Assembly: GCA_012730045.1 (NCBI GenBank)
Contig: JAAYBR010000081.1
Location: forward strand, 1 to 43,974
Source: Candidatus Hydrogenedentota bacterium
Lineage (GTDB): Bacteria > Hydrogenedentota > Hydrogenedentia > Hydrogenedentales > CAITNO01
Length of the DNA: 43,974 nt
Direction: 5' to 3'
Part shown: piece after piece, positions 2 through 43,974 of the stretch
Position numbering within the stretch: position 1 is the stretch's first letter
Layout of the letters: each line of letters opens with the position of its first letter
Made by a program: the position numbers and the translations under genes
The notes under the pieces: generated by a model
Seen by the model: the letters and a program-made list of their open reading frames with translations, nothing else
Database searches by the model: none
What the model was told of the DNA's origin: nothing

Positions 2-340
2 CAGCCCCCCGCCGCAGAGCCGCACCCCGCGCAGGCCCCCGCCGCAGAGCCGCCCCCCGCGCAGGCCCCCGGCGCACCGCGCTCCGCCGCCCGGGGGAGC
101 GCGTCCATACCGTCCATACCGTCCATACCGTCCATATCGTCCATCCCGTCCATCCCCCCCATCCCCCCCACCCCCCCGCGCTACCCCGAGGTCTCCGCCA
201 ATGCGGCGCTGGTCCTGATCGGGGTGGCCTGCGCCCTCCTGGACCGCCAGCTCTCGGCGCAGGCCGACGCCTTCGGGGAGGAGGGGGGCTTCACGGAGCG
301 CCTGTACACCCACCGTCAACGCCGGAGACGCGACGCATGA
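2..340 (+). CDS. Four-helix-bundle suffix-domain protein, C-terminal part (5' end outside window)
   Basis: The frame is open from the left edge to a TGA at 338-340. The last 50 or so residues ([20 protein letters not shown], then LLDRQL and [11 protein letters not shown]) resemble the C-terminal suffix domain found on four-helix-bundle (S23-like) proteins, which often sit inside type I restriction-modification loci. I recognise the family from this pattern; the helical bundle itself is off the edge. Before the suffix lies a low-complexity linker rich in Pro, Ala and Gln, followed by a Ser-Ile-Pro repeat encoded by six 9-base units at 103-156. The stop codon overlaps the hsdR start as ATGA, so the two are probably translationally coupled. 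Its role in restriction-modification is not established. Confidence 0.7.
103..156 (+). repeat. In-frame array of six GTCCAT-N3 nonamers
   Basis: Six copies of GTCCAT plus three bases follow one another with an exact period of 9 (starts at 103, 112, 121, 130, 139 and 148), then decay into a C-rich tract. In the frame of the overlapping gene they encode Ser-Ile-Pro or Ser-Ile-Ser units. The same core forms inverted intergenic arrays at 14601-14681 and 18387-18477. Confidence 0.85.
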
Positions 341-3300
341 CCGCCTCTTTTTCGGAATCTGTCGTGGAGGACGCCGCCCTCTCCTGGCTCGGCGCCGCCG
401 GGTGGCGCGTGGCGCACGGTCCGGACATCGCGCCGGACTCGGCGGGCGCGGAGCGCGCGCACTACGGCCAGGTGGTCCTGGAACGGCGGCTGCGCGCCGC
501 GCTGGCGCGTCTCAACCCGGCGCTCCCCCCGGAGGCCCTGGACGACGCCTTCCGCAAACTAATGCACCCCGAGGGGCCGACGCTGGAGACGCGCAACCGC
601 GCGCTGCACCGCCTGCTGGTGGACGGGGTGACGGTGGAGTTCCGCCGCGCGGACGGGTCCATCGGCGGTGCGCAGGCGCGGGTGATGGATTTCGACACCC
701 CGGACACCAATGACTGGCTGGCGGTCAACCAGTTCACGGTGGTGGAGAACAAGCACACCCGCCGCCCGGACGTGGTACTGTTCGTCAACGGGCTGCCACT
801 GGTGCTGGTGGAGCTGAAGAACGCGGCGGACGAGAACGCGACCCTCTGGTCGGCCTTTCACCAGTTGCAGACGTACAAGTCGGAGCTGCCGGCGCTGTTC
901 GCGTACAACGCGCTGCTGGTGATCTCGGACGGGCTGGCGGCGCGGGTCGGCACGCTCACGGCGGGGCGGGAGTGGTTTAAGCCGTGGCGCACGGTCCACG
1001 GGGAGGCGCTTGCCCCGCCCTCCATGCCGGAACTGGAGGTCTTGGTCGGGGGTGTCTTCGACAAACGCCGCTTGCTCACCCTGATCGGCCATTTCCTGGT
1101 CTTCGAGGACGACGGCGGCGGCAACCTGGTGAAGAAGATGGCGGGCTACCACCAGTTCCACGCGGTGAACACGGCGCTGGCGGAGACGCTGCGGGCGGCG
1201 CGGACGCATGCGGGGGAGACCCAGGGCCGCTATGAGTCCGGAAGGCAGCCCGGCGGCGAGCCGGGCGACCGCCGCGTCGGGGTGGTGTGGCACACACAGG
1301 GTTCGGGCAAGAGCCTGTCCATGGCGTTCTACGCGGGGCGGGTGATCCGCGAGCCCGCCATGGAGAACCCGACGGTGGTGGTGCTGACGGACCGGAACGA
1401 CCTGGACGACCAGCTTTTCGGCACCTTTTCGCGGTGCGCGGACCTGCTACGCCAGCCGCCCGCGCAGGCGGAGAACCGGGCCGACCTGCGCGCGAAACTG
1501 TCGGTCGAGGCGGGCGGCGTGGTGTTCACGACGATCCAGAAGTTTATGCCGGAGGAGAAGGGGGACCGGCACCCGGTGCTGTCAAACCGACGCAACATCG
1601 TGGTGATCGCCGACGAGGCGCACCGGAGCCAGTACGACTTCATTGACGGGTTTGCCCGGCACATGCGGGACGCCCTGCCGGGCGCGTCCTTCATCGGGTT
1701 CACGGGGACCCCCATCGAGCTGGTGGACGCGAACACGCGGGCCGTGTTCGGCGACTACATCAGCGTGTACGACATCCAGCGGGCGGTGGAGGACCGGGCG
1801 ACGGTGCCGATCTACTACGAGAGCCGCCTGGCAAAGCTGCAGTTGAGCGAGGCGGAGAAGCCCACCATAGACCCCGATTTCGAGGAGGTGACGGAGGGCG
1901 AGGAGGAGGCGCGCAAGGAGAGGCTGAAGAGCCGGTGGGCGCAGCTGGAGGCGGTGGTGGGCGCGGAGAACCGGCTGAGGCTGCTGGCGAGGGACATTGT
2001 GGAGCACTTCGAGAAGCGGCTGGAGGCGATGGACGGCAAGGCGATGGTCGTGTGCATGAGCCGCCGGATCTGCGTGGAGCTCTACCGGGAAATCTCGGCG
2101 CTGCGCCCGGACTGGGCGCACGGGGACGACGACAAGGGGTGCCTCAAGGTGGTGATGACGGGGTCGGCGTCCGACGGCCCGGAGTGGCAGGAGCACATCC
2201 GCAACAAGCCCCGCCGCGAGGCGCTGGCCGCGCGGTTCCGCGACGCCGGCGACCCCTTCCGGATCGTGCTGGTGCGCGACATGTGGCTGACCGGGTTCGA
2301 CGCGCCCAGCCTGCACACCATGTACCTGGACAAGCCGATGCGCGGCCACGGCCTCATGCAGGCCATCGCGCGGGTGAACCGGGTGTTCCGCGACAAGCCC
2401 GGCGGGCTGGTGGTGGACTATCTCGGCCTGGCGCAGGAGCTGAAGGAGGCGCTCGCCACCTACACGGCGAGCGGCGGCACCGGCCGGACGGCCATAGACC
2501 AGAACGAGGCCGTCGCGCTGATGCTGCAAAAATACGAGGTGTGCTGCGGCCTGTTCCACGGGTTCTCCTGGGAGCCGTGGACGACCGGCGCCGCGGCGGA
2601 CCGGCTCGGCCTGCTGCCGGCGGCGCAGGAGCACATCGTGGCGCAGGAGGACGGCAAGAACCGTCTCTTCGGCGCGGTGCGGGAACTGTCGCAGGCCTTC
2701 GCGCTCTCCGTGCCGCACGAAGAGGCGCTGCGCATCCGCGACGACGTCGCCTTCTTTCAGGCCGTGCGCGCGGCCCTCGCCAAACGCGCGGAGGGCGGGC
2801 CGAAGTCCGACGAGGAGCTGGACCACGCCGTGCGCCAGATTGTGTCGCGGGCGGTCTCTTCAGACGGGGTGATTGACATCTTCGAGGCGGCGGGGCTCAG
2901 GAAGCCCGACATCTCGATCCTGTCCGACGAGTTCCTGGCCGAAGTGCGCAACATGCCCCAGCGCAACCTGGCCGTCGAGCTGCTGCGCAAGCTGCTGACC
3001 GGCGAAATCAGGACGCGGCAAAAGAAGAACGTCGTGCAGGCGCGGTCGTTCCTGGAAATGCTGGAAAGCGCCCTGCGGAAGTACCAGAACCGCGCCGTTG
3101 AGGCGGCCCAGGTGATCGAGGAGCTGATCGCGCTGGCGAAACACATCCGCGAGGCCGCCGCGCGGGGGGAGGCGCTTGGGTTGACGGAGGACGAGGTCGC
3201 CTTCTACGACGCGCTGGAGACCAGTGACAGCGCCGTGAAGGTGCTGGGCGACGACACGCTGCGGGCCATCGCGCGGGAGCTGGTCGCCACGGTGCGCCGG

Positions 3301-3462
3301 AATGTGACCATAGACTGGACCCTGCGCGAGGCTGTGCGCGCGCAGCTGCGCGTGCTCGTGAAGCGCATCCTGCGCAAACACGGCTACCCGCCGGACAAGC
3401 AGGAAAAGGCGACCCAGACCGTGCTGGAACAGGCCGCGCTGCTGTGCGCGGAGTGGGCATAG
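337..3462 (+). CDS. hsdR: Type I restriction endonuclease R subunit (HsdR)
   Basis: This is the ATP-dependent translocase and nuclease subunit of a type I restriction enzyme, which cuts DNA after translocating it past an unmethylated recognition site. The 1041-residue length is normal. The N-terminal nuclease domain has Asp at about 145 and the ELK motif at about 159-161, a PD-(D/E)xK site. The SF2 motor shows GSGKS at about 322-326 (Walker A), DEAH at about 426-429, GFTGTP, and the late motif [19 protein letters not shown] followed by [10 protein letters not shown]. The start ATG overlaps the preceding stop. HsdM and HsdS are not in the window and would be expected to the left. All visible key motifs are intact, so the subunit looks functional. 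The stop lies 7 bases from the convergent lipoprotein stop. Confidence 0.95.
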
Positions 3463-41654: not shown

Positions 41655-41742
41655 ACAGAAAGCGCGCAAAAATGCTTCCCTTTTTTCGGATTTTTTCGCC
41701 CGCCGCGCGGTCCGCGCGGCGGGCGAAAATCCGTTCCAATCG

Positions 41743-43974
41743 TTACCCGCGTCCGGCCCGGGAGACGACGCCCAGCACCACCAGGGACAACGCCCCGAGG
41801 AACAGGTCGCCCAGGCGGCTCTTCAGCGACTCCGTGGACAGGCCGGCCTTGCCGCAGCCGCTGCAGCCGCCGCAGCCGCCCATCTCCAGCTCGCCGCGGT
41901 CGAGCACACCGTCGCCGTTGGCGTCGAGGGCGGCGAACAGGACCGGGGTCATGTTCCAGATCCGCGCGCGCGCCTCAGCGAGGTTCAGCGTGCCGCTGCC
42001 ATCGGCGTCAAGCTCGTCGAACACCTCTGCCAGCAGGTCCCGGGCCGTCCCGGAGGACGCCGGATCCACGCCCAGGGACACCGACAGGGCCACCGGCGTG
42101 CCGGGTTCCGCGAGAACGCGACCCGGAGGATCCTGGCGCACCACCGCGCCCGCGGCGACAACGCTGCTGTATTCCTCCGTGACCGCGCCGGCCACGAAGC
42201 CGGCCGCCGCCAGGGCCGCCTCGGAAGCCGGGCGGGCCATGCCGGTCACGTCCGGAATCTCGACGGCCGTGGGGCGCGCGCCCTTGCTGACCACGAAGCT
42301 CACCGCGGACCCGGCCCCGGCCTCAACGCCGCCGGCGGGATTCTGCGAAATCACCCGGCCCGCCGGGAAGGTTGCGCTGTACTCTTCGGTCACCGTGCCG
42401 ACGACCAGGCGGGCAACGGTGATCGCGCCTTCCGCGGAGGCCCGCGTCAGACCGACCACATTCGGCACCAGGATGGGGGCCGGCCCCTTCGAGAGGACGA
42501 CGCTCACCGCCGTGCCCGGGGCGGCCGGGGTGCCGGCCGGCGGATTCTGGTCGGTGACCAGGCCCGCGGCCAGGATTTCACTGTACGCCTCGGTCACCGT
42601 GCCGAGCGTCAGGCCCGCGGCCGCAAGGGCGGCCTCCGCCTCGGCGCACGTCAGCCCGGCGACATTCGGCACGGGCCGGTCGGAGGCCGGATCCGGACCC
42701 AGGGAGACCTCAAGGGCCACCGCCGTGCCGGCCGCAACTTCCGTGCCCGCAGCCGGCGTCTGGCTCATCACGTTGCCCGCGGGCACCGTGGCGCTGTACG
42801 ACTCCGTCACCGCGCCAAGCGTCAGGCCCGCGCCTGTGAGCGCCGCCTCGGCCGCCGTGCGGGTCAGGCCCACCACATACGGCACCGCAACCGGCGCCGC
42901 ACCCAGCGAAACCTCAAGGGCCACCGCCGTGCCGGCGGCGACTTCTGTGCCCGCAACCGGCGTCTGGCTCATCACGTCGCCCGCAGGCACCGTGGCGCTG
43001 TACGACTCCGTCACCGCGCCAAGCGTCAGGCCCGCGTCCGCAAGCGCCGCCTCCGCGGCCGCCCGCGTCAGGCCCACCACGTTCGGAACCGCAACCGGCG
43101 CCGCACCCAGCGAGACCTCAATGTCCACCGCCGCGCCCGGAAACACTTCCGTGCCCGCAACCGGCGTCTGGCTCATCACGTCGCCCGCAGGCACCGTGGC
43201 GCTGTAGGACTCCGTCACCACGCCAAGCGTCAGGCCCGCGCCCGTGAGCGCCGCCTCGGCGGCGGCCCGCGTCAGGCCGACCACGTTCGGAACGGCCACC
43301 GGCGCCGGACCCAGCGAGACCTCAAGGGCCACCGCCGCGCCCGGAAGCACTTCCGTGCCCGCCGCAGGCGTCTGGCTCATCACGTCGCCCGCGGGCACCG
43401 TGTCGCTGTACGACTCCGTCACCGCGCCGAGCGTCAGGCCCGCGCCCGTGAGCGCCGCCTCGGCGGCGGCCCGCGTCAGGCCCACCACGTCGGGCACGGC
43501 CACCGGCGCCGGACCGAGAGAGACTTCAATGTCCACCGCCGTGTTCGGAAGCACTTCCGTGCCCGCAACCGGCGTCTGGCTCATCACGTCGCCCGCAGGC
43601 ACCGTGGCGCTGTACGACTCCGTCACCGCGCCAAGCGTCAGGCCCGCGCCCGTGAGCGCCGCCTCGGCGGCGGCCTGCGTCAGGCCGACCACGTTCGGAA
43701 CCGCCACCGGCGCCGGACCCAGCGAGACTTCAATGTCCACCGCCGTGTTCGGAAGCACTTCCGTGCCCGCCGCAGGCGTCTGGCTCATCACCTGGCCCGC
43801 CGGGACGGTGTCGCTGTAGGACTCCGTCACCGCGCCAAGCGTCAGGCCCGCGCCCGTGAGCGCCGCCTCGGCGGCGGCCTGCGTCAGGCCCACCACGTCG
43901 GGCACGGCCACCGGCGCCGGACCGAGAGAGACTTCAATGTCCACCGCCGTGTTCGGAAGCACTTCCGTGCCCGC
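41743..43974 (-). CDS. PASTA-repeat surface protein with EF-hands and Cys-rich transmembrane tail (N-terminus outside window)
   Basis: The gene continues past the right edge; 743 codons are visible. Nine PASTA domains are recognisable from their starts (VPDVVGLT, VPNVVGLT, VPYVVGLT, VPNVAGLT, IPDVTGMA and the like), each about 67 residues. The outer six are nearly identical, with a 201-base DNA period. Two EF-hand loops follow, DADGSGTLNLAE and DANGDGVLDRGE. The C-terminus is GGCGGCSGCGKAG, then a hydrophobic helix (LFLGALSLVVLGVV) and SRAGRG. This order of Cys-rich motif, helix and basic end resembles a sorting or anchoring tail. No kinase domain is visible, unlike in the PASTA kinases. It is probably anchored and exposed. 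Calcium binding and wall binding are inference. Confidence 0.87.
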   Translation of the reverse strand, partial: AGTEVLPNTAVDIEVSLGPAPVAVPDVVGLTQAAAEAALTGAGLTLGAVTESYSDTVPAGQVMSQTPAAGTEVLPNTAVDIEVSLGPAPVAVPNVVGLTQAAAEAALTGAGLTLGAVTESYSATVPAGDVMSQTPVAGTEVLPNTAVDIEVSLGPAPVAVPDVVGLTRAAAEAALTGAGLTLGAVTESYSDTVPAGDVMSQTPAAGTEVLPGAAVALEVSLGPAPVAVPNVVGLTRAAAEAALTGAGLTLGVVTESYSATVPAGDVMSQTPVAGTEVFPGAAVDIEVSLGAAPVAVPNVVGLTRAAAEAALADAGLTLGAVTESYSATVPAGDVMSQTPVAGTEVAAGTAVALEVSLGAAPVAVPYVVGLTRTAAEAALTGAGLTLGAVTESYSATVPAGNVMSQTPAAGTEVAAGTAVALEVSLGPDPASDRPVPNVAGLTCAEAEAALAAAGLTLGTVTEAYSEILAAGLVTDQNPPAGTPAAPGTAVSVVLSKGPAPILVPNVVGLTRASAEGAITVARLVVGTVTEEYSATFPAGRVISQNPAGGVEAGAGSAVSFVVSKGARPTAVEIPDVTGMARPASEAALAAAGFVAGAVTEEYSSVVAAGAVVRQDPPGRVLAEPGTPVALSVSLGVDPASSGTARDLLAEVFDELDADGSGTLNLAEARARIWNMTPVLFAALDANGDGVLDRGELEMGGCGGCSGCGKAGLSTESLKSRLGDLFLGALSLVVLGVVSRAGRG
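42690..43974. repeat. Tandem 201-base repeats inside the PASTA gene
   Basis: Six or so units recur at 201-base spacing; the GTTCGGAAGCACTTCC block, for instance, is at about 43548, 43749 and 43950. Blocks are shuffled: alternative versions of the DIEV/ALEV and VLPN/VFPG/VAAG segments occur in different orders, which suggests recombination between units. Confidence 0.85.

Follow-up and report, generated by a model that had tools for sequence, protein, structure and literature searches.

What does a bacterium build with a long array of PASTA domains that has no kinase attached and ends in EF-hands and a cysteine-rich tail? An open reading frame (ORF) of this kind runs off the end of a contig in a metagenome-assembled genome (MAG) of Candidatus Hydrogenedentota (4.46 Mb, 155 contigs). 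The window analyzed here is that whole contig (G000:C81; 43,974 nucleotides), and the named relatives found through the EF-hand/tail alignment are also Candidatus Hydrogenedentota MAGs. C-terminal sorting tags show which proteins a bacterium puts on its surface, and the tail was followed across the phylum. We conclude that the ORF probably encodes the stalk and anchor with which a giant exported protein of the cell surface ends.

A kinase-less PASTA array is joined to EF-hands and a cysteine-rich tail

The following features were assigned, all on the minus strand.

41743..43974, minus strand: C-terminal 743 codons of the putative surface protein gene (ORF; runs off the contig at its 5' end)
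43906..43974, minus strand: partial further PASTA unit at the contig end, of which the last 23 residues are present (translation and unit register)
42682..43905, minus strand: six 204-bp PASTA units, the probably recombining core (TRF period 204, 91%; units 80 to 94% identical; PASTA): W1 43905-43702; W2 43701-43498; W3 43497-43294; W4 43293-43090; W5 43089-42886; W6 42885-42682
42055..42672, minus strand: three diverged PASTA units, each with a one-to-one orthologue (Pfam; tree): W7 42672-42469; W8 42468-42265; W9 42258-42055
41881..42042, minus strand: canonical EF-hand pair (Pfam EF-hand_5/_1/_6 over cutoff, two stretches; conserved in nine paralogues)
41848..41880, minus strand: Cys/Lys signature GGCGGCSGCGK (two tail alignments; spacing statistics)
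41746..41847, minus strand: rest of the tail, with spacer, hydrophobic GDLFL helix, and basic end (two tail alignments; profile searches)

When the 743-residue ORF was searched against Pfam, nine complete PASTA domains (PF03793) were found with 466.7 bits against a gathering score of 23.2 (E value, 2e-143), together with EF-hand_5 in two stretches (30.6 bits against 25.9). The calcium ligands at positions 1, 3, 5, 9, and 12 are kept in both EF loops, DADGSGTLNLAE and DANGDGVLDRGE, as read from the sequence. The ORF closes with the tail GGCGGCSGCGK...LKSRLGDLFLGALSLVVLGVVSRAGRG, which is cysteine rich, then hydrophobic, then basic. Domain searches detected no kinase domain either in the window ORF or in its 5' part on another contig, C95. 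An earlier sequence-only reading had described at least nine PASTA domains, two EF-hands, and a Cys-rich tail with no kinase, and all of these were seen. AlphaFold2 modeling of the last PASTA domain, EF-hands, and tail yielded a usable structure for the EF-hands alone; residues 141 to 167 of the model formed a helix of low confidence.

The NCBIfam equivalog model NF033483 (PknB_PASTA_kin) scored 470.8 on this kinase-less ORF, above its cutoff of 450. Since the cutoff is passed through the PASTA repeats alone, automatic annotation may miscall the protein as a kinase, and NF033483 is a likely source of such errors. The PASTA Ser/Thr kinases (PknB and Stk1) share extracellular tandem PASTA domains with this protein and provide the nearest solved structures of its PASTA domains. 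In contrast to them, it has no kinase domain, its membrane part is C-terminal, and it carries EF-hands and many more repeats.

The 5' part of the gene lies almost certainly on a second contig

Contig C95 starts within a PASTA array of like kind on the same strand, and the array is interrupted by a contig break on both C95 and C81. The C95 ORF has a signal-peptide-like start, MRKSSLLLTGLVFLGMLGGGGAAA, followed by repeated modules of about 240 amino acids ("FGDIS" modules), each with a PASTA unit after it. No exact overlap was found between the end of C95 and the end of the window, and the 31 residues that end C95 and the 23 at the edge of the window could be opposite ends of a single 68-residue unit. 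An orthologue in a sister genome (JAKPUV010000551.1, L038) carries the modules, the array, the EF-hands, and the tail together on a single contig. From this arrangement we strongly infer the C95-C81 join, which would almost certainly place the 5' part of the gene on C95. If the join is right, the full length comes to at least about 2,400 residues, with no fewer than 15 complete PASTA domains. The repeated module, "EPVTFGDIS...," with PASTA after each copy (L018:2-5086 on G000:C95 and L038:1-3405), is without a match in Pfam or NCBIfam, and AlphaFold2 gave a pLDDT of 32 for the N-terminal module.

The tail recurs on many otherwise unrelated exported proteins

The sequence-only reading would have been refuted by a tail unique to this protein. 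Searches instead placed the tail on 9 to 10 proteins of the same genome, nine of which are paralogues sharing both the EF-hands and the tail. Tails were collected with profile searches and from selected stretches of sequence, and all genomes compared were MAGs. A nine-tail profile found nine strong members and one weak member in the own genome and had members in 22 of 68 genomes of the phylum. With a profile of 55 diverse tails, members were found in 34 of the 68, including 17 of 17 genomes of the same family, at 2 to 32 proteins each. Diverged tails are present in other families; family f11 has nearly none, with a weak match in 1 of 25 genomes.

The tail layout consists of a Cys motif with a Lys, about 15 residues, the stretch LGDLFLxGLxLxxL, and RR. 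Among the 55 tails, the distance from the last Cys to GD is 14 to 18 residues in 47 and most often exactly 15, a Lys stands within 5 residues after the last Cys in 50, and about 17 residues separate GD from the first basic residue. A stop codon lies within 0 to 16 amino acids of the significant matches examined. By a simple rule, 23 of 27 complete tail ORFs have a signal-peptide-like N terminus. The domains preceding the tail are diverse: M6 InhA-like and trypsin-like peptidases, WD40 propellers, LRR, cohesin, InlB repeats, and PMP/beta-helix domains with choice-of-anchor Q. A signature, a hydrophobic helix, and a basic end at the extreme C terminus, carried by many otherwise unrelated exported proteins per genome, are the general marks of a C-terminal sorting signal. 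On this pattern, the tail is very probably a sorting or anchoring signal, and its cleavage by a dedicated enzyme is predicted, with less assurance, by analogy with known tags.

The tail could also be only a permanent membrane anchor, the helix and basic end staying in the inner membrane while the Cys residues are acylated or disulfide bonded and nothing is cut. A hydrophobic stretch of about 17 residues with a positive end, seen in nearly all of the 55 tails, would suit such an anchor, as would the fact that no cognate protease was singled out. An anchor of this kind, however, does not require that a Cys/Lys motif be conserved at a fixed distance or that GD be almost invariant in its hydrophobic part, and known tags of such a layout are processed; we consider this reading unlikely. 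It is very improbable that the Cys-rich motif serves to cross-link neighboring stalks through metal binding or disulfides, with sorting incidental. Two to four Cys residues in most tails and, in the own genome, Ca-competent EF-hands directly upstream of the tail are in keeping with cross-linking. Yet the number of Cys residues ranges from 1 to 6 and the layout is kept even in tails with a single Cys, and many tails have no EF-hands ahead of them but follow GEGE linkers or PASTA domains. A processed sorting signal remains the preferred reading.

A strict scan of 84,980 GTDB genomes with the RLGD-FL core, which is sensitive to close relatives only, found relatives in Hydrogenedentota only. One Pseudomonas match was rejected, as it combined EF-hand similarity with an RLGDVFL that occurs by chance in a different frame. 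Matches to a degenerate DNA pattern of the Cys motif were no commoner than those to a reversed control. In the literature we found no mention of the Cys/LGDLFL tail or of PASTA proteins in Hydrogenedentes.

The tail resembles MYXO-CTERM but has no significant match among library models of sorting signals

Nine tails and then 55 were compared with NCBIfam (June 2026) and Pfam, and no significant match to a sorting signal was found. Among the 55 tails, the MYXO-CTERM model (TIGR03901) hit one, without significance (E value, 0.11); the best E value was 0.59 for PEP-CTERM models and 0.064 for NPXTG, and LPXTG was not among the matches listed. A methyltransferase model matched by one tail (E value, 6e-4) is unrelated and was taken as chance. 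The suggestion of a sorting signal distinct from both PEP-CTERM and LPXTG is thus well supported, since no library model matches significantly and the tail recurs at the C termini of many exported proteins.

In Myxococcus xanthus, MYXO-CTERM has a GCGC motif before a helix and basic end, is cleaved by MrtX, and is proposed to be lipidated at Cys (PMC11980579). The tail shares with it a Cys signature (often GCGC in MYXO-CTERM), a hydrophobic helix, a basic end, the position at the extreme C terminus, and an occurrence on dozens of exported proteins per genome. It differs in its Cys residues, which stand about 15 residues before GD, in its conserved Lys, and in the LK.RLGDLFL stretch; moreover, no MrtX orthologue was recognized among the five membrane proteins of the genome that were scanned. 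Because the TIGR03901 match fails, we exclude the tail from MYXO-CTERM. It appears to be a C-terminal sorting signal with Cys residues that has yet to be described, comparable to MYXO-CTERM but outside that family.

JDVT-CTERM, Synerg-CTERM, and CGP-CTERM are C-terminal signals with an essential Cys that are paired with CPBP/Rce1-like proteases; NCBIfam names the pairings with MrtJ, MrtS, and MrtA. The match of our tails to JDVT-CTERM was not significant, and the Synerg-CTERM and CGP-CTERM models were unmatched. Unlike the compact known Cys tags, the tail holds its Cys about 15 residues away from GD. PEP-CTERM, VPDSG-CTERM, and IPTL-CTERM share the tripartite C-terminal plan, and an XrtH-like exosortase is present in this genome, but the tail has no P-containing signature and no significant match to these models.

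IPTL-like-looking tails of an LPxAG type occur separately in these genomes. The gene next to the C95 ORF (L018:5090-6226) encodes one FGDIS module, one PASTA domain, and this other C-terminal tag (LPAAGGAGLGLL...RRCRR), which was also seen in another genome (L094). The LPxAG-type tags are perhaps exosortase substrates.

Candidate processing enzymes were short-listed

The search for a matching sorting protease, which the sequence-only reading had proposed, succeeded in part: candidates were short-listed, and no single enzyme was picked out. The genome contains six CPBP/Rce1-like matches and one XrtH-like exosortase. Among the five membrane proteins scanned, the best CPBP protein reached 32.7 bits to Mrt_core against a cutoff of 100, and the CPBP proteins scored far under the cutoffs of all Mrt models. 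The XrtH-like exosortase (L071 / L140, G000:C92:356-1282) scored 80.1 bits, just under the XrtH cutoff of 86.

Co-occurrence of three CPBP proteins and the exosortase with tails was compared by hand and singled out no enzyme. In genomes at least 90% complete, the MrtA-like CPBP protein of contig C104 occurs in 19 of 19 tail-rich genomes, yet 20 of 23 tail-poor genomes have it as well, and the exosortase is absent from three tail-rich ones (G006, G017, and G035). The MrtJ-like CPBP protein of C59 was rejected as the cognate enzyme, as most tail-rich genomes are without it. In the C104 family, positions resembling ExxxR, YHxxK, and HxxxE are kept in most members examined; in the exosortase family, Cys, Arg, and His are kept. 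A CPBP/Rce1-like protein is the leading, if tentative, candidate for the tail-cleaving enzyme, and the XrtH-like exosortase is a doubtful one.

The exosortase gene is followed by that of a small membrane protein. In family f11, relatives of the exosortase align in split pieces only. In two further CPBP-like proteins (L076 and L077, on G000:C80 and C108), WGxxQQ replaces the usual EExxxR catalytic motif.

The PASTA array probably expands and recombines between fixed ends

The 204-bp core units are 80 to 94% identical pairwise (TRF mean, 91%). The six units once called nearly identical are all present, but at this identity they are only similar. Among pairs of informative sites in the core units, 157 of 325 fail the four-gamete test. 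This incompatibility agrees with the view that blocks are shuffled among units, while a permutation of its spatial clustering is borderline (P = 0.06). Since units this similar show such strong incompatibility, the array probably expands and recombines, and unit expansion with exchange is probably the simplest reading of the core.

At the array edges, units pair one-to-one with those of the orthologue (C5 with O4, W7 with O9, W8 with O10, and W9 with O11) at 77 to 86% DNA identity and in supported clades, and the orthologue's core units O5 to O7 cluster together in the tree. The core between C5 and W6 comprises at least 7 units if the ends of C95 and C81 are taken as one unit; the congeneric orthologue has 3. 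The proposed length variability is thus supported, the repeat number differing between two species of one genus and so not being fixed at that level.

Repeat-number differences and mosaic units might be assembly artifacts of short-read MAGs with mixed strains. Contig breaks fall within the array on both C95 and C81, the sister MAG is fragmented and 10% contaminated, and the spatial permutation reaches only P = 0.06. Against an artifact, which we judge quite unlikely, stand the many base differences between units, the single contig holding the sister-genome array, the clean orthology of the edge units, and the breadth of the incompatibility. Read as a surface stalk that expands and recombines, the array would be a clear case in which recombination changes length and the ends stay fixed.

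The array was also suggested to bind cell wall or glycans. PASTA Ser/Thr kinases are a family thought to sense the cell wall, and their PASTA domains are the closest solved ones to those found here, so the array might be the working part, binding peptidoglycan or glycans and tuned by its variable units. Nothing was found in support of such binding, however. Peptidases, WD40 propellers, beta-helices, and other unrelated N-terminal domains all precede the same kind of array-EF-tail block, as expected of a shared stalk, and what varies in the core is the count of units, not a clear binding face. A role in display fits these combinations better; a display stalk is likelier than wall or glycan binding, to which we give little probability.

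A proposed lineage-specific sorting system

By analogy with MYXO-CTERM, the protein would be exported by Sec and halted at the inner membrane by the hydrophobic stretch and basic end. The Cys/Lys motif, just outside the membrane, would be modified, most likely by lipidation, and a multipass membrane protease would cut off the helix. The modified C terminus would then hold the protein at the surface, and the PASTA array would form a stalk of evolvable length that lifts the N-terminal domains off the cell. Export, helix retention, Cys modification, and cleavage are carried over from MYXO-CTERM; the direct observation is the sequence pattern.

It is quite plausible that Hydrogenedentota have a sorting system of their own, with the Cys/Lys and LGDLFL signal, a fixed spacer of about 15 residues, and their own membrane protease and modifying step, and that they use it to display peptidases, propellers, and giant repeat proteins, with recombining PASTA arrays as the stalks. 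A tag found in neither NCBIfam nor Pfam, on dozens of proteins in an uncultured phylum, would make the surface proteome readable from genomes, and the tag-bearing proteins form a concrete substrate set for the enzyme hunt.

Two further observations concern the contig. An 18-bp perfect inverted repeat with a 1-base loop (window positions 41693 to 41729) lies directly downstream of the stop codon of the PASTA-EF-tail gene. The contig start (positions 1 to 177) holds GC-rich tandem repeats of 30 bp and 9 bp upstream of a gene at positions 337 to 3462, whose product may be a type I restriction R subunit.
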